Source of the DNA: Alligator mississippiensis
Lineage: Eukaryota; Chordata; Crocodylia; Alligatoridae
DNA length: 64,000 nucleotides
Direction: 5' to 3'
NCBI RefSeq assembly: GCF_030867095.1
Contig: NC_081835.1
Span: 20,530,501 to 20,594,500 of the forward strand
Below, piece by piece: positions 1 through 40,600 of the stretch (position 1 is the first letter of the stretch; every line of letters starts with the position of its first letter). The translations under genes and the position numbers were made by a program. The notes beneath the pieces are model-generated. The model ran no database searches, had not been told where the DNA came from, and was given only the letters and a program-made list of their open reading frames with translations.

Positions 1-690
1 CCTGGATCTTACAGCTGCACCTCCAGAAATGTGATATACCTCATCCAATGCACCAAATGCCCTGATGGAAAATACGCAGGAGAGACCAAACAACAACTGC
101 ACACCAGAATGAACGCACACCGGAAAGCTATCAGAGACAGGAATACCCAATTACCTGTGAGGGCACATTCTCACAAGAAAACCACTCTCTCTCCAATCTC
201 TCAGTCCTGATCCTCAAAGGAAACTTACACAACACTTCCCAAAGACGAGCCTATGAACTCCACTTCATCAACCTCCTGGATGCTAAAAATCATGGACTAA
301 ATATAGACATTGGATTTATGACACATTGTAACCTGCCCGAGATCTGACTTCCCAGGTACCTCTCCACTATTCATCCCCCTTCTCTACCCATCACCCAGCC
401 TCTCTCTCCCATTGACTCCTCAGTCTACATCTTCACTGACTGCCTGTCTTGCATGCAGACCAGCCCAGCCTCTGGCATCTTTACTTTTCATTCCATCCAG
501 GAGAAGCACACACCAACTGCTGACATTTTCTTAGCCTGAGGAAGAGTTTTTGAACCTGAAAGCTTGCTTAATAATTGTTTTCCAACTATTTAAGTTGGTC
601 TAATAAAAGATATCAGATTCACCCAAAGAACCTTGTCTGACTATGTCCTTAGACCAACATGGCTACAAGCTACACCCCTGTGTTTAGAGA
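1..690 (+). mobile_element. Penelope-like retroelement fragment: GIY-YIG endonuclease and 3' tail
   Basis: The first 200 bases encode, in one frame, a piece with NVIYLIQCTKC, KYAGETKQQL and RMNAHR. This is the pattern of the GIY-YIG endonuclease that follows the reverse transcriptase in Penelope-like elements. A non-coding stretch then leads to a 3' tail (540..685) containing TTGGTCTAATAAAAGATATC and ending near GGCTACAAGCTACACCCC. The same order recurs on the - strand at 10758..13801. The copy is cut by the window start and is old and non-functional. Confidence 0.8.
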
Positions 691-1641
691 GGAAATTTAA
701 GTGGCATCATAGGAACTTTGATCATCTTGTGGACATGGTATGAGAACTGCCTTCTTAAACTTTGTTTGGGGCAATTACAAACTATACAGTTTGGCTCCAG
801 CAAGTAGTTTAAAGAACTTTTCCCAAGCTTGGTGTTCTGGTTTCATTTCAGTTCTCCCCTTACCACAGTGCTTACATGCAAAGAAACAGAACTTCCTCAA
901 AGGAAAGCCCCAGCATAAAAAACAAAACACAAAACTCAAATAATATTTTAAAGCAATCCTTTCATATCCTCTACCATGAAATACAGAAGCTTAACTGGAT
1001 TTTTTTTCTCTTTTTAAACTAAACGTCCACATTTGCATATGTACTCATCCATCCTCTATCCACATGCTTCCCAAATAACATGAAAAAACTATTATTTAAA
1101 GAACACTGTCAAGTAATCTGATATGACATGAAGCCAAACCAAACCAACAAATGTTAACCTTGGCTCCCTAGAGTTACTGAATTGGAGTTTTGGATCTAGC
1201 ATCTGAATGTCCCAGAGGCACCAGTTCTGGGGGAGATTTGGGTCTAAAAATGTCAAGGTAAGTTTAGAACTGGATCCTGGTCAGATGAATGAGCCGAGAT
1301 AAAAATGTGGCTTGGAGCCATCTCATGTCTGACCAGCCTTCAGACAGTTACGATTTGCTGAAGTTCTCTGTATTCTAGTAGCCCAATCATGTTCCTTTTT
1401 AAACCAATGTAAAGGCTACTACTAGGCCAAAATATACCACTTCTGAATACCATGGATATCACTGAAGTTACATCTTGAAAGACTATGACCTGATACATTC
1501 CCTGTGATAAGCATCAGGACCTTTGTATTAATCTTATTTCTGTACTCAGAAACCTCTGTTTTTATTGAGATTTTTAAATAGTATCTTTAAGGATTTATTG
1601 CTGATGATGTCATTAGCTTCTCTTACCATCCTGCTTTCCAG
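690..1641. other. DNASE1L3 intron, no recognised feature
   Basis: AT-rich unique-looking sequence between the Penelope-like fragment and the first DNASE1L3 exon in the window. I see no exon-like open frame with conserved residues and no clear repeat. Confidence 0.5.
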
Positions 1642-1799
1642 AACTTTATCTTCATGGGGGACTTCAATGCTGGCTGTGGCTATGTTGCAAAAAAACACTG
1701 GAAGGACATCAGGCTGAAAACTCAATCTGAATTTGTGTGGTTAATTGGCGACAACAATGACACAACAGTTAAAGGGAGCACAAGATGCCCATATGACAG
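1642..1799 (+). CDS. DNASE1L3: DNASE1L3 exon with the GDFNA active-site motif
   Basis: The acceptor is ctttccag and the donor is AG|GTAATA. The exon opens in phase 0 with NFIFMGDFNAGCGYV and ends after two bases of the Arg codon in CPYDR. The Asp and Asn of GDFNA are catalytic in DNase I. Residues WLIGDNNDTTVKGST closely follow the mammalian WLIGDQEDTTVKKST. Confidence 0.92.
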
Positions 1800-4700
1800 G
1801 TAATAATAGTTCACTTGAGACGTGTTCCCTGCTCAAAAAACCCCTAAAGGGATTATACAGAATGCTGGCAATGCCTTTCAAATACTGCGTGTTATGGCTT
1901 CAAAGGTTACGCGGAGCTCAGTTGGAGTGGGCGATAAGAATCCTTTTAATCATAAGTACAAAGAAATGTGCAGGTCTCATTGGTGAGCAGTTTCCCAGAG
2001 AACCAGCATTAGAAGCACCCGTACACTGAGATGAACAACAGGCAATTATATAGCAGTTTTCATCTTCAAAGAGCTTTAACAAACATTAACTAAGTGAAAG
2101 GCACCCCTGCAAAGACAACCTGATCAATAATGAGTGGTTTTCAGGGTCTACAATTACAATAAGCTCCTTATTTTGGCTACTGCTCTTATCTTTTCAAATG
2201 ACAAATGCAAAAATCAGGTTTTGCTTTAAGGCTAAGATTCCTAGTGCTCCAGATGACAAGCCATGCTCCTATGATAAACATAATGGTTTATGGACAATAA
2301 ACATCCTGCTCATTAGCAAATACAGCCTTAAAAACTCTTAACTCTTTTGATTTCCTTTATCAAGGGGGGGACTTTAGGGGATTCAGATACCTGAGGTCCT
2401 GTGATATATGCATTGAAACTACTGCTTTGGATTGCTACATTATTATAGCTTGTTTAAATACAAATCTTTCAATACTGGGCTCCAAGGTTTTGGCCCTCAG
2501 AGCATTTAGGTACCCAATGAAATCATCAGAAATTTGCTGTCTAAATCTGTCTGAGGATCCAAGACCAAAGAACTAATTAGGGACCCTATGATTGCTTCCC
2601 TTTTAAGTGCTGGGCTTTTGCTGTGATTTAAATCCAAAATCACAGTAGCTGATGCAACCACAAATGACACTATGAGCAGAGTATTTCCAGCTAGATTGGG
2701 GAACTTGGAATTGCCCAGTTATTCTTTTGACAGTAGCCTCCATCCAGAGCTGAGCTGGAGCAACTCCACTGTGCCCTGAGAGCCAGGCAACGGGTCTGGG
2801 GTTGCTGCATGTAGTAGCTGTCTACCTGGTATCACCCAGCTAATAGTAAATAGACTGACACAGCTTGGGGCTAAAACATGAACAACACGTGCAGGCTGTG
2901 CCCATGGGTGTTACAAACCAAGCATCCCAGAGACAACCAGCAACCTTCCTAAAATTTCTCTGTGCTCTTTTCTCACCTTACATAAAAAGAAACAGCAAAT
3001 GGCCCATCCCAAATAAGCAACACCTCAGCATGCTATACAAGGCTCCTGATTCACAGAGCATTTTGTCATATGCCAGTGGCCCTTCTCCCACCTCCACCCC
3101 CTGGGGCACAAAAAAGGAAAACTCATTTGGTTACATGATGTTCCTCCTCTAGCATGGCACATAGGGAATTGGGCCAATGTCAGTTGAGTGAGGCTCTTGG
3201 CAGGATCATCCCACTTGGAGGATAATATTCAGATGCACAGATTTGCTGTACGTGGATGCGCAGCTCTGAGGAGAGGGAGACAACTGACTCGGGAGCCCCT
3301 CTGTAAGCAGACTGTATCACATTTGCTGCATTGTTTATTTTTTCTTCTGTCCCATTAAAGAGAAATGTGCGGGGACCCTGTCAAATGGGAGATTGAGGAC
3401 TGAGTGTTTAGGTGCACAAAGCTCCCCCCCTCCTCTACACACACAGAGCAATGAGAAAAGAATGCGTTTTCTCACCTCAGACACCAAATGGGACAACAGT
3501 TTGGAGTAGGCTATTCTCCCTGCTGATTCCTTAATACTGCTCTCTAGCCTCAGTACTCGCATTCGTCTTGCAGAGGAGGCAATTTGTCTATCCTCCATAT
3601 GTCAGCATCCACGGTGTCTTCCCATCACTCTGGATTAGGTTCTGACAAATCCCTGAACCTTGTTTCCAAGAGATCAGCAACAAGCAGAGAGAGCCAGTGA
3701 AGCTCTGCAAAGGCTCAAAATCCAATTTGGCTCTAAATAAAGCCCTGTGTTTGCAAGCAACCTGTGGCACTAGAACGCAGCACTCCTGTCTGTTTGCTCA
3801 GACAGCTCGAGCTGGGTCATCACCTTTGCCAATACAGTCAGAGCTACATTTCCTGGTTCATTCACAGCAGCAGGAATCCCACAGCCAACAGAACCGTGAA
3901 AGAAACTTTCTCTTGACCATGCAACCCTCATGACAACTGCAGTGAATGGTGGTGCAATGACATATCCATTATAGGACCAGCCTTGTTATAGAACAACCCA
4001 AACTCCCAGTGACTTGGGCATTGTCCATACTGGGGATTTGTGCGGCTGGCCACCAGATATGGTGTAGCTCCACACTACACACATGTTAAGACCCTCGTAT
4101 AAGTCAGACAGAGATCTTTGCCCGTCTTCTTTGGGGCAGCATTGGTGTCACTGCACCAGTGCCTGGCCACCAGTGTCTGGAGCAGGGGAAAAACTATAGT
4201 GAAGGCCTTCAATATTTGTGGGTGTTCAATAAATAGATCATATCTTACATGTTTATCAGTCATTCAAATGCAGCTTCTGTTAACAGACTGAGCTCTCCTG
4301 GGAGAAAGGGGACACTGGTTTTAGAGTCTAATAAATGGCATAGTTTTGAGCAGTCAGGAACCTGGCTAAGGCTTTAATTTGAGGAAGAGCAGCAGATTCT
4401 GCAAAGGACATGAGCCCCAGTCCTCCCATAGGAATGGGGAATCAGAGCCTTTGTATGTAAAGTTTGGGTTCGTTCTTCCTTTGCCTTCTGATTTGTGAGT
4501 CTTTATGGCATACTTAGGACACATTTCTAGGCTTTCCTCCACAACCCGAGGGCTAAGAATGATACTTTAACGAAAGCTGCAATTCCCCGATGATTGATCA
4601 CTATGTCTCGGGTGCTGGAGTTTTTGTAAGAACACCACAGCTGGTGAGGCTCACAGCAATATCCTGAGGAATGGCAACTCTGCCCAGTGCTTAGTGTGGG

Positions 4701-6202
4701 GAGGAGATCCACTTAGCTCCGTTTCCCGCATGAATGCAACATTACCAAATAATACACATCTAGGGATTCCCTGAAGATCTATGCAGGACACTGGGACTGA
4801 GAACGTGCAGCAGAGAAGTTGTTAACGGTGAGAGTGTTGTTTCCGTTTACTCCATCGCCCTGGTTACATGTTGCTAAGCAGACACCCAAAGATAGATATC
4901 TAGGAAGGTGTGGTTGGCATGGACACATCTAAATGGTTCTCTGCTTTCTTTAGAATCGTGATCACTGGAAAGCAGCTCATCAACGCTGTTGTCCCAAGCT
5001 CTGCACATATCTTTGATTTCCAGAATGCTTTTAATCTGACTGAAGAACAGGTATGTGATCCTTCCAGGTTTTGCATTAACAGACCACCTCTGCAGCACTG
5101 AATAACGAACTGGTCTGGTCAAAGACCATTTCTGATGGCTGGATGGTATGCATTGAATACATTGGTTCCTTCTCCATGCACACAATGCCAAAATGTTTTC
5201 ATGTGCAGCTGGTTCACTGAGAGGACCATCAGCTTCAGCAGGTGTGTGACTGTTTTGTCTCTTAGAAGTAGTAAACACTGGAGAAAGGGAGAGAGGAATT
5301 TTCAAAATGGTGAGGTCAAATGATCACACTCCCGCCAGACTTTCAGCCTAGAGTCACTCAGCACAAGTCCATTCATAGCATCAGATGAAGTGGGCTGTTG
5401 CACATGAAAACTAGCATATCTCTGAACAAGCGAGTCTCTAAGGTGCCACCCTGCCCTGCCTTCTGCCAGGGGTGGTTCCAGAGGTGGGGTGGCACAGTTT
5501 CACCTGCTTTGGCTGCACTGCACACGTGAGCTGTCAGCATGAGATTTGGCCAGGGCTCCTGCTTTTATGCAGCTCTGGAGTGCAGAGGGGAGGGGGAAGA
5601 AAGGGAAGGGTGAACAATAGTAGTGTTCAATCCCTGAGCTCCAGAGGCATGGAAAAACAAGGGCTCCGGCCAGACCCTGCCCTGATCAGCTGGAGCCTGC
5701 GCTGACAGGGCAGTGAACATGCACAGCACAGCCAACAGGGAGCGCGGCTGCACCCCCTTTGCCACATTCCTGGATCCGCTACTGCCTTCTGCCCCACTTC
5801 AGACTAAACAAACTACTTCTCTCAGCATGAGAGGAACAATAGCATTCATATTGCTCTTGCTGTACAATACTTTATGTATAAAATTGATTTCACCTTCTTC
5901 CTGAACACTCATAAGACTTATACATTGACTTCACCCACCATTGAAATGTAACCACCTCTAGAGCCAAGTCTGGAAAGTGCACAGTCATATCACATAACTA
6001 CATAGGGCAAGAGTGGTATCCAACAATGCAGCTGTATTGTATACTACATACTATGACTACTTTTTTTCTTTCAACTTCCCAGGCTCTCGCAGTGAGTGAC
6101 CACTTTCCAATAGAGTTTGAGCTGAAAATGAGCAGAAGTTCCCCAAGATCTTTTGCGCCCAAGAAAAGAGCAGCAAGGAAGAAACACCACTTTTCATCAT
6201 AA
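1642..6202 (+). CDS. DNASE1L3: Deoxyribonuclease gamma (DNase I-like 3), last three coding exons (partial gene)
   Basis: DNASE1L3 is a secreted, Ca/Mg-dependent endonuclease of the DNase I family that digests chromatin in extracellular vesicles and apoptotic debris. Three + strand exons, 1642..1799, 4954..5050 and 6083..6202, read in one frame across GT-AG introns and give the C-terminal 124 or so residues. Active-site motifs are visible: MGDFNAGC in the first exon (the Asp and Asn of the family's GDFNA) and SDHFPIEF in the last (the catalytic Asp-His pair). Two cysteines, in NAGC and STRCPYDR, match the conserved disulfide pair. The protein ends in a basic tail (PKKRAARKKHHFSS), as in mammalian DNASE1L3, where the tail is needed for vesicle-coated DNA. 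The first five or so coding exons must lie before base 1. The gene is tail to tail with FLNB, as in human. Confidence 0.93.
1800..4953. other. DNASE1L3 intron, about 3.15 kb
   Basis: Bounded by a GTAATA donor and a TTTAG acceptor. Mixed-composition sequence; open frames on both strands are short and show no conserved motifs. No repeat family recognised. Confidence 0.6.
4954..5050 (+). CDS. DNASE1L3: DNASE1L3 penultimate coding exon
   Basis: The acceptor is ctttctttag and the donor is CAG|GTATGT. One base completes the Arg codon from the previous exon, followed by 32 codons (IVITGKQLINAVVPSS ... FNLTEEQ). Length and phase match the homologous exon, and the HIFDFQNAFNLTEE segment aligns with the mammalian VFDFQKAYKLTEE. 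Confidence 0.92.
5051..6082. other. DNASE1L3 last intron, with an interspersed-repeat tail near 5375..5455
   Basis: Intron from GTATGT to the CCCAG acceptor. Around 5380..5450 the sequence has the pattern GCATCAGATGAAGTGGGCTG followed by GTCTCTAAGGTGCCAC, a tail shared by many copies of an interspersed repeat in reptile genomes. I cannot name the family with certainty. Confidence 0.45.
6083..6202 (+). CDS. DNASE1L3: DNASE1L3 terminal coding exon with SDHFP motif and basic tail
   Basis: The acceptor is caacttcccag. The exon codes for 39 residues plus TAA. It begins ALAVSDHFPIEFEL, with the catalytic Asp-His pair, and ends in a Lys/Arg-rich tail. The tail is shorter than, and not obviously alignable with, the human one (which ends KKTKSKRS), but keeps a similar charge. 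An AATAAA lies about 225 bases after the stop. Confidence 0.92.
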   Translation, partial: ALAVSDHFPIEFELKMSRSSPRSFAPKKRAARKKHHFSS

Positions 6203-12957: not shown

Positions 12958-13801
12958 AAGTTCATAGGCTCATCTACAAAAGGTATTTTGTAAGTTCCCT
13001 TTGAGGGTTAGAACTGAGATCAGAGAGGGAGTGATTGTCCTGCGAGAAGTGGGCACCAACAGGTAGTTGGGTATTGCTGTCTTTGATTGGTTTTTGGGTG
13101 TGCGTTCATTCTGGTGCGCAGTTGTTGTTTGGTTTCTCCTGCATATTTTCCATCAGGGCATTTGGTGCACTGGATGAGATACAGCATATTTCTGGAGCTG
13201 CAGGTGTAAGATCCAGGAATGGTGATGGTTCTGTTGTGGGGTGTAGTAATTGTGGGGGTGGTGGATATATGTTGGCAGGTTTTGCATTTTTTTGTCCTGG
13301 CAGTCTGGATCCATTAGCTGTGGTTTGGGTCATAGGGAGTTTACTTCTGGTGATGAGGTTAGTGAGGTTTGGTGCTTGTTTAAAAGCTAGGATGGGTGGT
13401 TCTGGGAAGATCTCTTTAAGAATGGGGTCTTCTTCTAGCATGGCTTGCAATTGTTTGAAGATTTTCCGTGTAGGTTCCAGGGAAGGATGATATGTCATAA
13501 CTAATGGTGTGCAATTTGTGGGGATTTTCTTTTTGTACTGCAGCAAATCTTCTCATGGTCTCTGGGTGGCTCTTTCAAAAGTGCGATCTCTCTCTTTTGA
13601 GGAGTGTCCTTGTTGGCTGAAGGCCCTTTTGAGATTTGTGAGGTGGCGATTATGGGTATGCTCCTTGCAAATTCGGTGGTATCGGAGAGCTTGGCTGCAA
13701 ATTATAGCTTTCTTGGTGCATTTAGGGTGATCACTGGGTCTGTATAGATATGTATGTTTCATCTGGGGCTTTCTTGTATATGGTGGTTTAAATTTTGCCA
13801 T

Positions 13802-18448: not shown

Positions 18449-21413
18449 AAGGTTAATTAAAACAAACCTTTCATTATTATTTATCATAAAACTATTTCTT
18501 TTCTTTCCATACACAGGCTTGGTTTACTTGTTATTAAATAAAAACCACCACCACTGAGGGCTTACACATAAAATATAATTGTAAATGGAGTATTTTCATA
18601 TTCTCAGATGTTAATGCCTGCATTGTATTTTATAGGTCAACAAGAATAGCAATTCAGAAATAGGAATTTACATACTGGCAATGGAACCAGAAACCTCTAT
18701 TTAAGTATGATATAGTGATTAAGAAAAAGGGCATCATTTTGTCAGACAGTTTTTCATACTGAACGCCAGCGCTGTTAATGGGACTGCACGCATGCTTTAA
18801 ATTAATCACATGTGTCAGCATTTGCAGTACTGGGACCTTAAACAGTTAAAGAATGCTAAAGAACTGCCAAATATCTGTTCATATGCCTCCTCTTCTATAT
18901 ACTCTCCCACCCTTTTTTAATGAAGTAATATCAGATAGATTTGCCTTTTCTTTATGTTATAAAAAACCTGAATGTTATCCTCCTAAAATGAATTGAGAGT
19001 TAAGCAAGGTATAAATCCTAGGAAAGTTGATAGACTTGGTGACAGCAATAACTTTGTATAACCCTATACCATTCAAAACACGCAGATGTATGCACAGTTA
19101 TGAATGTGAAACATAAAAGTCTGACAATTCTAAAGTATACCATAAAGACCTGTTCCCAAAGGGTCTTTGTAAAGTATCAACTTAAAACGAATATTTGGCA
19201 AGAAACAGATTTTTTACTCCAACAGAACTATTTTGATAACCTTTCAAAAGAATCCACCTATTGATTATTAATTACAATTGTAGACTTTTAATGACAAATT
19301 GCTTTGGTAGATCAGGCTATTTCCGGTTGGGCTCTGAGGGAGGCCTTGGTATTGACCTGTGGCGCTTCACGGAACGACAGAAAGAATGCTGGGTAGTCAT
19401 TTTCCCTCTTCATGCTGGGGTGCACAGTGCAGGGAAACTTTGGGAGATTCATACATTTCCCTTGAAATAGCAGGCTTCACAGCACATATTAATAAATGTT
19501 TAGTTAAGATGTTTTCATATGTTTGAGTTACCATCATATGGGGAAAGTTAATTTTAAAATAAACATTCACTAATATGAACCAGGAAGTTTGACCTTTCCA
19601 GACAGGCATTTGTACCAGAGAATTTTTTCCAATGGCGCAGACACATCTGGGGTAGGTACAGAATACCATTCACACTACAGAGCTCCGCATAAGAACTTTT
19701 CCAAGCTATTTCTTGCAGAGTATTATTTGCTGTTCTTCCTTCCCCTAATTACTGGACCCCACAGAGATTCCTTAGCTGCTTTTGTGCTTGAGGCACAGTT
19801 TTACTGTTCGTGCTTCAGCTGTATCATTTGAGGGTTAACACAACATGCAGTGGTTTCCTGAGGAAACAAAGATGCAGAGATAGATGAAGACCATCAACGG
19901 TTGGTCTGTAGCAGCAGATTGATTCTTACCGAGTACATAAGTCTATATCACCAATCATCACTTCTAAATCATAAGTCTATATCACCAATAAACAAGGATT
20001 GAAATAACTTGAGGGCTGACTGCCCAAGACAGTGACAAAGTGATCCAGGCCTAGTAAATCTGACTGGGGTGGATATAGAAGGAGTGTAGGCAAGGAAAGG
20101 GCTGAGGATGCCAATTTTATAGCATCAGCATACCCTCCTCCTCCGGTGGCACCCAGAAGGTATAAGGAGCACGAGGAGTATGAGGAGGTGTGGGAAGACC
20201 TAGGTATGGGGCAAGAAATGAGTGGCCTTGTACAATACCCTTGGCTGACTTCAAACATGCTAAGCACAAAACCAGTGTAGAGCTAACGCAACCCAAAGTA
20301 GCCTTCGCTATGACTTGGGCCCTCTCCTCTGTATCATTTTTTGCGCCACCCTGGGAGCTCTCTGGCCCCTCTTCTTGTGCAGGGAAGAGCACAGGATAAG
20401 ATGGCTATATGAAGGCTGGAATCACGAAAGAAGCCGAAGAAAAGGTGAAAAAGGTAAAAGAAATTTCATGAACTGTTGAAAGGCATTGATTTAAAAAAAA
20501 AAAAATGAAGGCTTCTGAGGGAGACTGATTTTAATGACAAAAAAGAGCTGGGCACAAGGCAGAGTAGATTGGCACATTACAGACCAATTAAATCAGAGAT
20601 ATACACCATAAGCTTTTGTAGGTTTACTTCATCAGATGCTGTGTTAAAAAGAGTTAACCATGTTTCATTCCTCAAGTGCTTTCACAAACACAGATATAAC
20701 AGTTAAGTAAATTTCTTTCCAATTTTGAGCTAGTAAGTACCAGAAAGAGATGAAAACTCATGGTTTCAGACTCCCATGTTTACATCCGAGTCATTTAAGG
20801 GTAAAATATGGTGTTGTTTTAGAAGCTACTGATCTTTGGAGACCCCATAATAGTTAGGTTCTCTAGTAATTTATAGCCCTGGAAAGACATTAAAGGAGAC
20901 TTCAAGTGACTACCAAATTGCAGTGAAAGCCTGAGGTTATTAGATACTATATAAAATGACAGAATATTTAGTTTAGAAGTACCATTTTTATACATTTTAC
21001 TACCTACAAATGTATTACGTCTTTCCCTGAATGAGTGTTGTTCGACTCGGTGCCTGTTGTTTAGCTCCACACAAGTAACCTCTAGACTCATTAATTTGTA
21101 GAGTCTTTAAAAAGGACAAATAAAAACAAAGCAGCACAGGAAAACCTATGGTTTCGTATCAAACCAAGAGACAGTTTATCTGGCACATGCAAGTAAGTCC
21201 AAAAAGTGCATTTAAAATAAGTTTGAAAGTTAAATTATGTAGTAAGTAGAGGAGGGTCTGAGTAAGAAACCTTAAAACTTCTTTCCCATAGAATGGGCAA
21301 TTAAAGAGGGAAATCGTTACTGAGTTTGCATAACTTGACTTAAAAACAAACAGCCCTGCTAGGCAACAAGCCCACAGTTCTGCATTACTAATACACACAG
21401 CAAACATCAAAGC
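18449..21413. other. Intergenic stretch downstream of the SPMIP1-like gene
   Basis: AT-rich. A 19-base direct repeat (ATAAGTCTATATCACCAAT) occurs near 19937 and 19970. An A-run lies near 20491..20503. CATAAGCTTTTGTAGGTTTA and TTCATCAGATGC near 20607..20640 resemble the tail of an interspersed repeat. No further gene recognised; I found no clear poly(A) signal for the small gene. Confidence 0.45.
19936..19989 (+). repeat. Short direct repeat
   Basis: ATAAGTCTATATCACCAAT occurs twice with a 14-base spacer. It looks like a small local duplication. Confidence 0.7.
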
Positions 21414-21532
21414 TCACGATAACTTGTCACTTTTTGATGGATGGTGGAAGATTCCATTCTTGATGTAGAAAGTATCCCTTACAATTCTAGACTTGGCATG
21501 CGCTGGAGCCTTGCCTTCTGTAATGACACCTC
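21414..21532 (-). CDS. SPMIP1-like gene, coding exon 2 (terminal)
   Basis: The acceptor is TTATTTTTCAG. Two bases complete the Gly codon, followed by 38 codons and TGA. The sequence contains KAPAHAKSRIVRDTFYIKNG and ends SDKLS. The exon was found by looking for an in-phase continuation of exon 1; its Arg-Asp-Thr-Phe-Tyr block is typical of short axonemal proteins. Confidence 0.7.
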
Positions 21533-23533
21533 CTGAAAAATAAGAGTATGTGATTATCTTAATACATTAAACAGTCTGATAGTCACACTGATGACATAAA
21601 TTTGTCTCTGCATACCAGGCCTAACCCTACATCATAAAGCTGAATATCGTTCACTCTCATGAAACCAGCACCTCAAAATCTGTGCTCAGCACCCGCCTTG
21701 CCTATTTTGTACAGAGCAGGTTACACATTAGTTGATTCCCCCAGCTTGTGACACTCACAATCTGGAATATTAATTAGGTAAAAGTGAGATATGTGCTTCT
21801 GGATATCCTGACTTTTGTGAGCTTCCAGAGAGGTACTTGCTACCTGGGGTTGTTTGTTTTTTTAATGTAGCAGGAAAGCATGGAGAATTCAGCCTGCAGG
21901 AGAAAACACCATACTGCACTGCAGCCCTAGGTAGATTGCCTCCTCCTCCCTTTATTGGCTGGGATCCTAGCCAGGAAGAGGAAGAGGCCCACACCCAGTA
22001 CCCTTTCCTAAAGGCACATTAGTCTTTTTTTGGATCCCAGGCACACCCTGAAATAACTGCTATTTTGCTACATTTTTCAGCAAAATTGAACAACTTATTT
22101 ATTTTTTTTAACTACAGGCAGTCCTCGACTTACAACATTCTGAGTTACAACGTTTCGCACTTACAACTATATAAATTGACACCTTGTTTCAACTTTGATG
22201 TCAGTTTCGACTTTACAACGCTTGATCCAATGTGACACCACGCCAGCAAACAAGTCTGCTTTGTCACCATCTCCCTGCAGAACATCTGTCCAAACTTCCT
22301 TGGACACTTTCTTTAAGAAAGCGGACACGGCTCCACAAAAACCTGCAGCCACAACTCCTGAGAAGACTCCAACCAAGAGCCCTTCAAAAAGTCCAGCAAA
22401 GTCACTTCAAAGAAGTCCTTCCAAATCAATGATCACTATTTACAATATAAATACATTAATGTAGCTATATTACTCATCTATAATTGATTGAGTACAAAAT
22501 TCTGGGGTATTTTTGGAGAAAGTAGGGTATCGGGCCTTGGTTCAGGAACCAATCCCTCATGTATAACATTTTTTCTTGTGAGAAAATTGGTTCTGAGTTG
22601 CAATGTTTCAACTTAAGAAGCGGTTTTCAGGAACCAATTGTGTCGTAAGTCCAAGGACTGCCTGTAAAGACACACGCCCCCCCACCCTCTCCTGCCACTC
22701 CCCCCACAAAAAGCAGGCTAGGCACCGGGCAAATTAAATAGGCCATACGTAATAATTATGCCCTGGCACTATAAACATACACTATTCAACTAAGTTATCC
22801 CGAAGACACCAACAGGCCTGTTCACGAGACCAGAAGTTAAGCCCATGCATTGACACTAGTAAAACTGGAGCCATAGAGATGCACTAATAACTCCAGGGAA
22901 ACAAAGTAAGGGTTAACCCTTTTACTTTTATGGCTGTAATCAGGGGGCACTAAACCAGCAGGGTAGGAAAGAGGAGAAAGAAACTGAACAACATTACTCC
23001 TGGTTGGATTCCCATCCAACACTATTATTCTACAAGCAACTCTCCACCTTACCTAAGCGCCAGCCATACTCCCAGGATGACAGCATTGGATAAGAGAATT
23101 TATCCTCTGGGCTCTTCTGCTTTCTCTCCTGCAGATACAGGTGCCTGCCTTTGCCCTCCCGGGATATGCCCTGGTACAGCAGACGCATTGTTCCTGGGGA
23201 TGCAGGTCTCATCTCTGGAAGAAGGGGCTCCTGAACCCTCTCTTCCTGCTTCCTGGGAAGGCCAACATCCTTTGGCTGCCTCTCTTGATAGCTTATCCCA
23301 TTTTTCTTGAAACCAGTTCCCTCCCCCTGATTCCTGAAGGGACTGGTCCCTTCCTCCTGCTCCCTGGGGGAGAAGATAGTCGGCAGAAAGCATTTCCTCT
23401 TGGGACCACTGCAGGGCTGGAGCCTGGGAAATTTGTGCCCGTATTTGGTGTTCCAGCCGACTCTACTGAATAACTCCTTCTCAATCAACTCCTTCCAGCG
23501 ATCCTGGTCTCGTGTGGTCAGTAGATCCTTCAT
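21414..23533 (-). CDS. SPMIP1/ATP6V1FNB-like protein, two coding exons, 199 residues
   Basis: Exon 1 (23053..23533) and exon 2 (21414..21532) join through a GTAAGG donor and a TTTTTCAG acceptor, closing the frame as Gly. The start MKDLLTTRDQDRWKELIEKE is chosen because it gives a compact conserved-looking N-terminus; the frame stays open 38 codons further upstream. The C-terminal half holds PEMRPASPGTMRLLYQGISR, SPEDKFSYP, SSWEYGWRL and RIVRDTFYIKNGIF. The middle is hydrophilic and Arg/Gln/Glu-rich. There are no membrane segments or signal peptide. From memory this pattern fits sperm microtubule inner protein 1 (ATP6V1FNB), an axonemal A-tubule protein; I could not run a search. It lies between DNASE1L3 and FLNB on the FLNB strand. 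Coding status is strong, the family name moderate. Confidence 0.72.
22115..22664 (+). mobile_element. Tigger-like (pogo group) short element, copy 1
   Basis: TA lies at each flank. Termini are CAGGCAGTCCTCGACTTACA and the complement of GTAAGTCCAAGGACTGCCTG. The interior keeps an open frame (22195..22464) with SVQTSLDTFFKKADTAP followed by a Lys-Ser-Pro tail (TPTKSPSKSPAKSLQRSPSK), which I take as the end of a Tigger transposase; the DDE domain is absent. It lies in the intron of the SPMIP1-like gene. Copy 2 is at 30831..31349. Confidence 0.75.
23053..23533 (-). CDS. SPMIP1-like gene, coding exon 1
   Basis: 481 bases encode 160 codons plus one base. It ends WEYGWRL with donor GTAAGGTG. A long frame without stops, a motif-rich C-terminal third and a clean donor argue against chance. 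The ATG context (GGGATCATGA) is moderate. Confidence 0.72.
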
Positions 23534-29184: not shown

Positions 29185-30258
29185 ATGTGACTCTAAGACA
29201 ATGGATTGCTAATTGGCTGAAGGGTCGTACTCAGAGGGTGGTGGTGGACAGGTCATATTCGACCTGGGGGGAAGTGGGCAGCAGAGTCCCCCAGGGCTCG
29301 GTCCTTGGGCCTGCACTGTTCAATTTCTTTATCAGCAATTTGGACGATGGGGTGAAAAACAACCTGTTCAAATTTGCTAATGATACCAAAATTTGGGGTG
29401 AGGTGGGCACGCTAGTAGGAAGGAAAAGACTGCAGAAAGACCTGGATAGGTTGTAAGGGTGGGCTAACAAAAACAGGATGCGTTTCAATACGGACAAGTG
29501 CAGGGTGCTGCACTTGGGCAGTAGTAACCGGCAGCACATTTATAAGATGGGAAACGCCCTTCTTGAGAGCATGGAGGCAGAAAGGGATCTTGGAGTCATC
29601 ATTGACTCCAAGATGAACATGGGCTGACAAAGCGAGGTCATGGTCGGCAGGGCTAACCGGACCCTATCGTGCATCCACAGGTGCATCTCAAGTAGGGCCA
29701 AGGAGGTGATCCTCCCCCCCTATGCAACACTGGTCAGGCCACAGCTGGAGTACTGTGTCCAGTTCTGGGTGCCCCACTTGAAGAGGGATGTGGACAACAT
29801 TGAGAGGGTCCAGAGGAAGGTCACCCGCATGATCCGGGGACAGCAGGGCAGACCCTACAATGAGAGGCTACGGGAGCTGAACCTGTTCAGCCTTCACAAG
29901 AGGAGGCTGAGGGGGGACCTTGTGACCGTCTATAAACTCACTAGGGGGGACCAGAAGGGTTTGGGGAGGACCTTGTTTCCCCTAGCGCCCCCTGGGATAA
30001 CAAGGAATAATGGCCACAAGTTGTTGGAGAGTAGGTTTAGGTTAGACATCCGTAAGAACTACTTCAGCCAGGGCGGCTAGGATCTGGAACCGACTTCCAA
30101 GGGAAGTGGTGCTGGCTCCTACCCTGGGGGTCTTTAAGAAGTGGCTCGATGCCTCCATGGCTGGGGTCACTTGAGCCCAGTTTCCCTCCTGCCCAGGGCA
30201 GGGGGTCAGACTTGAAGATTTACAAGGTCCCTTCCAACCCTACTTCTATGATTCTGAG
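29185..30258 (+). mobile_element. CR1 LINE, 5'-truncated, end of ORF2 and 3' tail
   Basis: Encodes the C-terminal part of a CR1 reverse transcriptase: RVPQGSVLGPALFNFFISNL, then FANDTKIW, and later LVRPQLEYCVQFWVPHLKRD and RVQRKVTRMIRG. The catalytic F/YADD motif reads FAND, so the second essential Asp is lost. In-frame stops occur at about 29454 and 29625, and the frame shifts near 30080. The 3' end shows the CR1 hallmark TTCTATGATTCT. Few stops suggest a moderately young copy. Confidence 0.92.
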
Positions 30259-30295: not shown

Positions 30296-30823
30296 AGAAT
30301 CATAGAAAATGAGGGTTGGAAAGGACCTCAAGGAGGTTATCTAGTCCAAACCCCGGCTCAAAGCAGGTCAACTCCCAACTATATCATAAGAGCCACGGCT
30401 TTGTCTACCCAGGTCTTAAAAACGTCCAAGGATGGAGATTCCACCATCTCTCTGGGTAACCTGTTCCAATGTTTTACTGCCCTCCTAGTGAGAAAGTTGT
30501 TCCTAATATCTCACCTAAACTTCCCTTGCTGCAACTTGAGACCATTGCTTCTTGTTCTGTCATCTGTCACCACTGAGAACAGTCCAGCCCCATCCTCTTT
30601 GGAACCCCCCTTCAGGTAGTTGAAGACTGCTATTTAATCAGAAGTCATGTGCCCCAGCCCCCTATATTTGTTGCCCTCCACTGGACTCTCTCGTTTATCC
30701 ACATTCTTCCTGTAGCGGGAGCCCCAAAGCTGGACACAGTACTCCACATGTGGCCTCACCAGTGCCGAATAGAGGGGAATCATCACTTCCCTTGATCTGC
30801 TCCAATGCAATCTCATCTTAGAA
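30296..30823 (-). mobile_element. CR1 LINE 3' fragment, tail to tail with the preceding copy
   Basis: Starts ATAGAATCATAGAAAATGAG, the complement of a CR1 3' end, then GGTTGGAAAGGACCTCAAGG. On the - strand its far end encodes [20 protein letters not shown], the conserved CR1 C-terminal motif. It is truncated by or next to the Tigger-like copy that starts at 30831. Confidence 0.88.
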
Positions 30824-30830
30824 TCGAGTA

Positions 30831-31349
30831 CAGGCAGTCATCGACTTACAACGTTTCAAGTTACGTTTTGCATTTACAATGTTTATAAACTGACACCGTT
30901 TCAACTTTCTGATGTCAGTTTTGAGTTTACAACACTTGATCCGAAGCCACGCCAGCGAACAAGTTTGATGTGTCGCCCATCTCCCTGGAGAATATCTGTC
31001 CAAACTTCCTTGGACACTTCCTTTAAGAAAGCAGACAATACTCCAGAAAAACCTGCAGCCACGACTCCTGAGAAGACTCTAGTTAAGAGCCCTTCAAAAA
31101 GTCTAGCAAAGTCATCTCAAAGAAGTCCTTCCAGATCAATGTGATTGCTACTTACAATATACATTAGCGTAGCTATGTACTAGTCTATAATTGAGTACAA
31201 AATTCTGGGTTATTTCTGGTGAAAATAGGGCATCATATCCCCCATTTATAACATTGTTTCATATGGGAAAATTGGTTCCGAGTTAAATTGAAACATTGCA
31301 AGACCTAGTTTTCAGGAACCAATTGCATCGCAAGTCTGAAGACTGTACC
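30831..31349 (+). mobile_element. Tigger-like short element, copy 2
   Basis: The left end CAGGCAGTCATCGACTTACA is preceded by TA. The interior aligns with copy 1 at 22115..22664, including ATCTGTCCAAACTTCCTTGG and the Lys-Ser-Pro-coding stretch near 31050..31130. The right end (GAAGACTGTACC) is degraded. Both copies share the same internal structure, so the deletion derivative itself was mobilised. Confidence 0.7.
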
Positions 31350-37481: not shown

Positions 37482-37669
37482 TTAGGGAACAGTGACATGG
37501 AATGGACTTCCAGGAATGTGTTCTTCACCCCACTTCACCGCCAGAATGTAGTCACCCTTTTCCTTGACGACATACGTTACGTTGTATTGGTGGTTGCCCA
37601 AATGCTTCACTGATACTTCTTCACATGGTATGGTGGGTCCATGGACACCAACTAACAACATATTCGAAC
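37482..37669 (-). CDS. FLNB: FLNB terminal coding exon: repeat 24, dimerisation domain
   Basis: Acceptor GCACCACAG. Two bases complete Gly, then 61 codons and a stop. Encodes [40 protein letters not shown] and the C-terminus [11 protein letters not shown]. This domain mediates filamin dimerisation. Confidence 0.97.
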
Positions 37670-40600
37670 CTGTGGTGCAATAACATAATGTTACTGGATA
37701 GTAGCGACTGCTCCAGAACAACAGGATCACCAACCAAAGGGGCTTAGTTTGGTTTAGCTGTGTATGAAATCAAGAGTCTCTGAAGCTTGCCTCTGCCATG
37801 TTCAACATACAACAGCTCCTTATTGAAACTTTTGGACCAAACCCAACTATGGTGTCTGATGCATCTCACACCACCAGACAACACAATAAATGTTGGCTCA
37901 ACAAGGGCAGTTTCAATTAGCAATAATCATGCCTCGGATTAACCTCAGTGGCTATGATACTGTCACTGCGCAACTTGTATCCAAGTGATGACAAGATGGT
38001 GGGAGAGCCAGGAGGTTTCATAGATTTTATAGGCATTAAAGTTTCGCTTTAAAAACATATTTCAAGCTGTTATACACACTTGCAACTAAGGCTGTCCTAC
38101 TATTTCCATGGTAAAAGCTTCCTTTCTGGAATCAGGTCACTAATCAGGTTTACGAACGTGCTTAGTGACGCACATTTTCTATACAGTAAAGACCAAGTTT
38201 CACCTGTGCTGCTGTACACATCCTTCACAAGATGCATAAAATGCAACCCACAAAAACAAAACGTAAGCATGCAGCTTTAACAAAAAAAAACAAACAAAAA
38301 AACTTCATATCAATGCTGTAGCCCCGCTCCCTTTGGGGATTCATAGAGTGCCTATCAGACACAAGACCCTGTCTAAACCAACTAATTACCTAATCTGGCC
38401 CCGTTTGGTGGTCACCATGTAGCTGTAATGGATACCTGAATGCTAAAGTTACATTTGTACATTTTGAAACCAAATTATCCCCACAGCTTGTATTCCACAC
38501 TACTCTAAAAAAATTCAAGGTTCATTTCAAGGAGTTTTAACTTCTGTCCAGCTAACAGAAAAGGACTTGTTAGTCTTACCCTCTAGAGAAAGATTTATGA
38601 TTAGCTAGAAATTAATTCTTGGCCGATAAATTGCAAGTCTGCCATTCAGACTCATGCTGGACTCTGAACTGTATTGCAAACATGCAACAGCCTTGAGATG
38701 ACATTCTTGCATCCATACCTGCTTTGCTGCAATCCACAGAAAAAGTGCTTTTTTGACCCACAAAAGCCTTTGAGAGCCCTGCTCCCCTGGAGATCACTTT
38801 GCTGGCATCAGATGAAGATTTGGGAATGGCACTATAGCATGTTTCTGTTGATGACCTTGTCACAGATTCCACCATGATTGAACTAGTTTCGTTTGCGCTG
38901 CCCGAGCTAACCAGTCGCTGGCCTAAAAGAAAAATTGGAAAGTTGCAAGCATCTACTTTGTTAGGGCATGTAGAAGGAAGTTTTGAAAGAGTGAAAAGTT
39001 CTTATATCAACAGTCGCATCAAAAAGACATTTCATTTGCATTGCACCATCAACTTCTAAAAGGTTCCAATTAGGAACAGGAATTCACTGGATTAGTGTGT
39101 GGTCTCTAGTATACCCCAGAATTTAAATTAAGCCAACAGTGAATGAGACTAAATGTGGTGCCCATGTTCTTAAACGGAAAGAAAAAAAACCTTTACTAGG
39201 ATCATGATAAAAACCAAAAGGCAGTGACAGGACAGTCTGAGCACTCATCCCACTCTTCTTTCAGGCTTCTTCCACAGTAGGAGGCAGCCAACTGAAAGCT
39301 CTTAAGTATACAGGTATCTAGCAGTTCTATGCACACTGCAAAAGTGACGGTTCAAGAAAATTAGACTCCTATTCTCTGCAAACTTTATTTTGATTTGCAG
39401 ACTGGGTGCTAGTTATACTTGCAAGCTATTTATAATTATATGATACATAAAGCACTATTATAATAGGAAAAAATAGACTTATTCAGGATATATACACAGC
39501 CTAGGAGCCACCCGTCTGCTGAACTCTATATACTAACTAACATCTGCCATGCACTGTGAAAGCAATAGCAACCCAGTGCTTAAGCAAACACATGATATTT
39601 CAGTTTAAGGGTTAATAGAGTTCAGATTTCATGAAGTTTAGTTGACAGCTTAAGGGAAAGCATTGTTGTGCTCACGTCACTAAATGCCTTTGACTCGAGT
39701 CAACAGAAGAATGGGTGCACATTTGGAGCAACTCACTTGGAAAGCAAAAAGGTGCCCAAGTCTACAGCAGGGTAAAGAATGCGCACTTGTCTCAAGCCGT
39801 GTTGTCTTGAACATGGCAGCTTTACAGATGGGTCAGCCAAATCACTGGCAACATCAGAAATATAATCTTGCCTTCTGCATTAAACTAATTTCAAGCAGAC
39901 AATGCAGGCACACAGTTTTACAGTATTAAATTAACAGCTTTAGAGTAACATTCTATGTAGTGCTCACTTTTCCTCAAGTTATTCTCTTTAGTTAATTGAA
40001 CTCAAGGTATAATTAAATCAATGTGAGCTACCATCAAATATAGGTGTCTTATATAAGAACCATCAACAAAAACAAGTTATACTTTCAGAGCAAGGTCCAG
40101 TAAACAATGTATTTCTAAAAACTACAGTACATTTTACTCCCACCTCCTGTCTCATTTCTAATTCTTTCCCCATTTGCAGTTTGTCATTCAGTGAAGGACA
40201 AGCTATAAAAGTAGGTGCACATGTACTGTCCAAATATTTAACCTGCTTTGGGATAAGATCTCTCATCTAGAACACTAGTAGGAAAAATGCTTCGTCCCTC
40301 ATGGTCAACACTAGATTCCAAAAACAAGATTGATAAGGTAGAAATCTCCACGGCAATCAAGGAAAGCTAGTTAGGAGTACCGACAATACTATAGTTAGTA
40401 ATTTTACCTGTAACTTTGGCCTTGAAAGGGCTGCCCACTATGTGGTTAGGCCCTCCATATTTAATTCCAATAAGATAGTTTCCTGGTGCCATGGGTGTAT
40501 ACATCACTTGGTAACCCTCTGGAGTTTCCTGGCAGTCCATTTTGACTTTTGATGGTCCTTCAATTGTAACAGAGAGGGTACCTGGACCAGCTCTGGTTGT

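Follow-up and report, generated by a model that had tools for sequence, protein, structure and literature searches.

An intact second SPMIP1 gene beside FLNB in the alligator genome, most probably an ancient paralogue of the FLNC-linked copy

The 64,000-nucleotide stretch of Alligator mississippiensis DNA analyzed here (the window) carries a two-exon gene that is the second, FLNB-linked SPMIP1 of the genome, a result that goes beyond the earlier account based on the sequence alone. This intact gene is likely an ancient paralogue of SPMIP1 (ATP6V1FNB) that arose when a block with a filamin and a DNASE1L gene was duplicated, most likely as part of the whole-genome duplications early in vertebrate history, and that would be expressed in cells with motile axonemes and have a B-tubule role.

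Structure and family membership of the window gene

The gene and its neighbors are arranged in the window as follows:

23053..23533, minus strand: exon 1 of the FLNB-linked SPMIP1 paralogue (481 bases; ATG, GT donor, open frame)
21533..23052, minus strand: intron (1520 bases, GT...AG, phase 1)
21414..21532, minus strand: exon 2 (119 bases; acceptor TTTTTCAG, TGA stop)
37482..39001, minus strand: 3′ end of FLNB (frames with the repeat-24 exons and the stop codon), directly upstream on the same strand
1639..6202, plus strand: 3′ part of DNASE1L3 (exon matches at 1639-1800, at 4952-5050 and from 6083), convergent with FLNB

The sequence-only reading had proposed a two-exon gene encoding 199 residues, and its coordinates, its in-phase join, its good splice sites (GT-AG) and its 21533..23052 junction, which is the intron, were all confirmed. 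The spliced coding sequence comprises 600 bases, corresponding to 199 residues and a stop, with the exons in phase. Exon 1, with the donor GTAAGG, encodes the N-terminal block, the linker and the start of the SPMIP1 domain; the phase-1 junction splits the first Gly codon of ...EYGWRLGGVI; and exon 2, the product of which was aligned to the C-terminus of urchin SPMIP1, encodes the conserved end SRIVRDTFYIKNGIF followed by TGA. With its start, stop, both splice sites and 199-codon frame intact, the window copy is confirmed as a real, intact protein-coding gene. When exon 1 was shuffled by single bases, 7 of 20000 shuffles stayed open. A weak point is the poly(A) signal, which is weak, distant and non-canonical: in a search for AATAAA and ATTAAA from the stop codon to position 20001, the sole signal was ATTAAA at 20535, about 0.9 kb downstream. 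Upstream of the window copy, the best match to a ciliary X-box on both strands agreed at 10 of 12 positions and was not above shuffled sequence (140 of 200 shuffles reached 10 or more, counted on one strand); upstream of the second SPMIP1 copy described below, the match was 11 of 12, a score that 19 of 200 shuffled versions of the window copy's upstream region also attained.

Traces of mobile elements were also observed. An insertion inside the intron, at window positions ~22117-22670, has ends that by eye look like inverted copies and holds a lysine/proline-rich frame, with a similar frame occurring again at 30773-31144; we take this insertion to look like the remnant of a Tigger-type DNA transposon. 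At 29628-30080 on the plus strand, a frame resembles by eye the terminal part of a CR1-type LINE reverse transcriptase, and frames at 1-207 (plus) and 13106-13552 (minus) have the look of pieces of a Penelope-like retroelement; none of these three frames had a Pfam match at E 0.01.

An SPMIP1/ATP6V1FNB-like identity had been suggested for the gene, and this was borne out by profile and structure-database searches. The joined protein matched Pfam SPMIP1 (PF22589) at 141.5 bits (E 1.9e-41; gathering cut-off 32.1 bits) over profile positions 19-122 of 122. Since exon 1 alone scored 103.3 bits, joining exon 2 gains 38 bits and extends the match to the final profile position, 122. A search of the Protein Data Bank (PDB) at E up to 1 returned three distinct matching sequences, all named SPMIP1, ATP6V1FNB or ATP6V1F neighbor: 8snb (111 bits, E 6.1e-31, window residues 3-189), 9v10 (66.4 bits, E 2.7e-17) and 8otz (64.3 bits, E 1.2e-16). 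According to the available portions of the structural reports, these derive from sea-urchin, mouse and bovine sperm, respectively (PMC12551952, PMC13066092). The Pfam families FAM183, CFAP90, LLC1 and SPMIP11 gave weak matches to the window protein, all below their own cut-offs; in the accessible text of one study, FAM183A, CFAP90 and SPMIP11 are grouped with SPMIP1 as proteins that carry a common tubulin-binding module, SNYG (PMC10973386). As judged by these matches, the window gene is an additional member of the SPMIP1 family. No SPMIP1 paralogue was named in the titles or abstract openings of the literature found on SPMIP1 (by a word-start match that also picks up SPMIP10 and above), and public genome annotation may already hold the window gene under a locus number.

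Filamin neighborhoods of the two SPMIP1 copies

The placement of the gene between DNASE1L3 and FLNB, as first read from the sequence, was upheld by the best PDB scores of its neighbors. The filamin repeat-24 peptide scored 188.5 bits to Filamin-B, 162.3 bits to Filamin-C and 142.7 bits to Filamin-A, while the first of the three DNase exons scored 85.1 bits to deoxyribonuclease gamma (DNASE1L3) versus at most 53.9 bits to DNASE1, the other two exons being identified by reading the frames. With the FLNB stop codon at 37482-37484 and that of DNASE1L3 at 6200-6202, the SPMIP1-like gene lies ~14 kb past FLNB and ~15 kb from the DNASE1L3 end. That the neighboring filamin is FLNC, which would make the window the ordinary SPMIP1 locus, was rejected on the Filamin-B score of 188.5 bits over 162.3 bits for Filamin-C, and the ATP6V1F exon had no match within the window. 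Genes listed for the human chr3 locus include FLNB, FLNB-AS1, DNASE1L3, ABHD6, RPP14, HTD2, PXK and others in the available text (PMC8385949). SPMIP1 and ATP6V1FNB are absent from the main text of that study, the lists of which are not a gene map, and these lists give weak support to the absence of an FLNB-linked SPMIP1 in human.

A profile search of the genome (2.35 Gb, 195 contigs) scored four candidates, two of which were over the SPMIP1 cut-off: the window copy, which was the best, and C4:2739497-2739739 on a contig here termed C4. There was no third place over the Pfam cut-off genome-wide. When the genome was searched with the whole protein, eight rows were returned: one for C4, two for the exons of the window gene and five others at E 0.148 to 7.97. 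The genes outside the window that bear on its history are:

C4:2739919-2739203, same strand as FLNC: the C4 copy of SPMIP1 (spliced, 173 residues, Pfam SPMIP1 115.7 bits)
C8:28991224-28988226, minus strand: a DNASE1L gene convergent with a filamin that appears FLNA-like by a narrow margin

The C4 copy comes next after ATP6V1F, whose last exon scored 120.4 bits to V-ATPase subunit F, and lies ~4.6 kb past the end of the FLNC match, with FLNC, ATP6V1F and SPMIP1 all on one strand. The filamin at this place scored 190.1 bits to Filamin-C, 158.4 bits to Filamin-B and 146.2 bits to Filamin-A in the PDB. As far as the source texts are available, the sheep interval runs in the order FLNC, ATP6V1F, ATP6V1FNB, KCP and IRF5 (PMC12924876), and a pig interval groups FLNC, KCP, IRF5 and SPMIP1 in a listing order that is not map order (PMC12937405). 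Because the C4 copy follows FLNC and ATP6V1F as in the sheep interval, it represents the ordinary SPMIP1, of which the window gene is a paralogue. The FLNC-ATP6V1F-SPMIP1 synteny is occupied by the C4 copy instead of the window copy; the window gene is paralogous to mammalian SPMIP1 and is not its syntenic orthologue. The C4 copy also has a phase-1 intron, of 195 bases, which lies at the same place and splits the same Gly codon as that of the window copy, a comparison made between the two copies of one genome. The C4 coding sequence is very GC-rich (GC3 of 0.839 versus 0.6 for the window copy) and has a proline-rich linker.

Searched with the final repeat of FLNB, the genome showed three filamin places, namely the window, C4 and a contig termed C8. 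The C8 filamin scored 99.2 bits to Filamin-A, 95.4 bits to Filamin-C and 94.5 bits to Filamin-B, a narrow margin by which it would be classed as FLNA-like. Downstream of it, in convergent orientation, is a DNASE1L gene with 48-52% identity to the three window DNASE1L3 exon peptides; we presume this gene to be DNASE1L1, which in human sits near FLNA. One of its exon matches reads with an in-frame stop, which may reflect a sequence error or the decay of DNASE1L1. The 50 kb downstream of the FLNA-like filamin was searched for a third SPMIP1, and this possibility was rejected, as the conserved blocks of both copies were without a match at E 0.05. In the same 50 kb, the whole C4 protein had many matches (best E 6e-6) and the window protein reached E 0.16, among the matches listed; those of the C4 protein were taken as low complexity, being proline-rich and mostly in the linker among the matches listed, and the background in the 50 kb scans is such that unrelated stretches reach E 0.001 (C4). 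The DNASE1L exons had no match within 50 kb at C4.

Thus, FLNB is accompanied by SPMIP1 and DNASE1L, FLNC by SPMIP1, and the FLNA-like filamin by DNASE1L, a companion pattern as expected from differential loss after block duplication. The FLNB block links the FLNC block through SPMIP1 with the FLNA-like block through DNASE1L, and the paralogous blocks looked for in the case of an ohnologue were found, with SPMIP1 at FLNB and FLNC and a convergent DNASE1L at FLNB and the FLNA-like filamin. Filamins descend from the vertebrate genome duplications, and we infer that the block duplication was probably part of these, as opposed to another old block duplication.

Age of the duplication and competing explanations

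The window protein was identical to urchin SPMIP1 at 71/180 positions (39%), to the C4 protein at 54/171, to mouse SPMIP1 at 50/147 and to bovine SPMIP1 at 48/141. For the C4 protein, the values were 49/157 with urchin, 64/140 with mouse and 64/134 with bovine; urchin agreed with mouse at 54/148 and with bovine at 51/141 (36-37%), and mouse with bovine at 115/141 (the mouse and bovine rows of the alignment being incomplete, with unseen residues entered as X). In the C-terminal block, C4, mouse and bovine have two gaps in common, one of two residues after RI and one of a single residue, neither of which is present in the window and urchin proteins. A tree of five rows (window, C4, mouse, bovine and urchin), in which the program flagged long branches at C4 and the window, grouped C4 with mouse and bovine at a support of 99/98, with a weak fork (74/76) inside this group. 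Clades of window with C4 (p-AU 0.0076) and of window with mouse and bovine (p-AU 0.0080) were both rejected, again on five rows with long branches. The tree, of five rows and without fish, shark or lamprey, sets the duplication earlier than the divergence of the C4 and mammalian copies; together with the shared intron and the same-strand place downstream of a filamin, it argues for a block duplication that predates the separation of the C4 and mammalian lineages. The duplication therefore appears ancient, and a recent one is disfavored.

Several other origins were weighed against this history. A gene-free explanation, in which an open frame and a splice pair arose by chance, has a negligible probability and is already refuted by the Pfam match: the E-value to the curated family is 1.9e-41, and of the 4 candidates in 2.35 Gb the window copy was the better of the 2 over the cut-off. 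With 7/20000 shuffles open and this E-value, the gene is well beyond what chance would give. A retrocopy was ruled out by the intron common to the window and C4 copies. We consider it very unlikely that a copy of the FLNC-linked SPMIP1 arose beside FLNB in the alligator's own line; although the comparison covers one genome and a five-row tree with long branches, such a copy is at odds with the rejection of the window and C4 clade (p-AU 0.0076), with the gaps that C4 has in common with mouse and bovine and that the window copy lacks, and with a window-C4 identity of 54/171 versus 64/140 for C4 and mouse, and it would make the same-strand place downstream of a filamin a coincidence.

Two further explanations accept an old paralogue and concern its present state. 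The gene, known from its sequence, could be a young pseudogene that has lost its expression or function and has yet to gather frame damage, a reading in keeping with the distant, non-canonical poly(A) signal and a ciliary promoter motif that is not above chance; this is improbable given the intact start, stop, splice sites and 199-codon frame, and given an identity to urchin that is highest in the structure-modeled C-terminal segment and lowest in the linker. Unlikely, as a variant of our favored explanation with which its odds overlap, is a functional paralogue working outside sperm (e.g., in multiciliated airway or oviduct doublets) while the FLNC-linked copy serves sperm. Duplicates often split tissues, which counts for such a role. 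ATP6V1FNB is also reported in airway doublets in the accessible text of one study (PMC10973386); set against this are the best match of the window protein, which is to urchin sperm SPMIP1, and the naming of mouse SPMIP1 as sperm-specific in the available part of another (PMC13066092).

Proposed role and comparison with known SPMIP1 proteins

Under the explanation we favor, SPMIP1 would have been copied together with a filamin in a block also carrying DNASE1L, most likely during the early vertebrate whole-genome duplications. The window gene would then be expressed in motile-axoneme cells, most likely spermatids, where the N-terminal block and the C-terminal SNYG-type segment of its product would bind the B-tubule inner wall of doublet microtubules and stiffen the B-tubule, as urchin SPMIP1 is placed to do. 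The window protein may share this B-tubule work with the FLNC-linked copy or may have kept an older form of it. In proteins with the SNYG module, SPMIP1 among them, the motif and a helix contact tubulin according to the text available (PMC10973386), and by analogy we infer that the window protein would bind the B-tubule inner wall like other members of this group. It is likely to act inside the B-tubule of motile axonemes, probably those of sperm, as a microtubule inner protein. On tissue, the literature as far as available is in disagreement, with mouse SPMIP1 described as sperm-specific (PMC13066092) and ATP6V1FNB shown in airway doublets (PMC10973386); in the latter account, ATP6V1FNB alone of its group was not markedly co-regulated with ciliary genes.

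SPMIP1, here taken as the urchin chain, is placed in the B-tubule lumen at B07-B10, with 188 residues, modeled segments 2-35, 104-187 and 147-187, and a table figure of 48, which we take as a 48-nm repeat, in the accessible text (PMC11834534); chain 8snb was equated with UniProt A0A7M7GIN5 of that report by its length of 188. Identity to urchin over residues 3-35 was 12/33 for the window, 8/33 for C4, and 12/29 for both mouse and bovine; over residues 104-187 it was 44/84, 36/80, 33/81 and 35/81, respectively; and over the linker it was 14/62, 4/43, 8/37 and 3/30. By these alignments, the window copy is nearest to urchin in the C-terminal segment and not in the N-terminal one, and its overall edge is a small difference (39% versus 36-37% for mouse and bovine). 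There is about an even chance that this hidden FLNB-linked ohnologue kept an ancestral, urchin-like C-terminal microtubule-binding end, that mammals, having lost this gene, depend on the derived FLNC-linked copy, that mammalian SPMIP1 is not a simple one-to-one counterpart of the urchin protein, and that sperm doublets of the alligator lineage may carry two B-tubule forms. The composition of sperm doublets varies between animal groups, and if true, this would be a concrete case of the loss of one ohnologue of a microtubule inner protein, its absence in mammals being probable, as well as a warning against treating urchin and mammalian SPMIP1 as plain orthologues.

When compared with known systems, the window protein is like urchin SPMIP1 (8snb) in that its residues 3-189 match, the end SRIV[RK]D[TS]F..NGIF is shared and the modeled segments align gap-free; it is unlike it in the linker, where 14/62 positions are identical with six gaps, and in extending 10 residues past NGIF. 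SPMIP1 linked to FLNC and ATP6V1F belongs to the same family, and its C4 representative has the same phase-1 intron place and the same-strand position downstream of a filamin. In contrast, the SPMIP1 proteins of mouse, bovine and C4 have a shorter C-terminal block, with the two-residue gap after RI and the one-residue gap, are 32-34% identical to the window protein and are encoded at a different locus.
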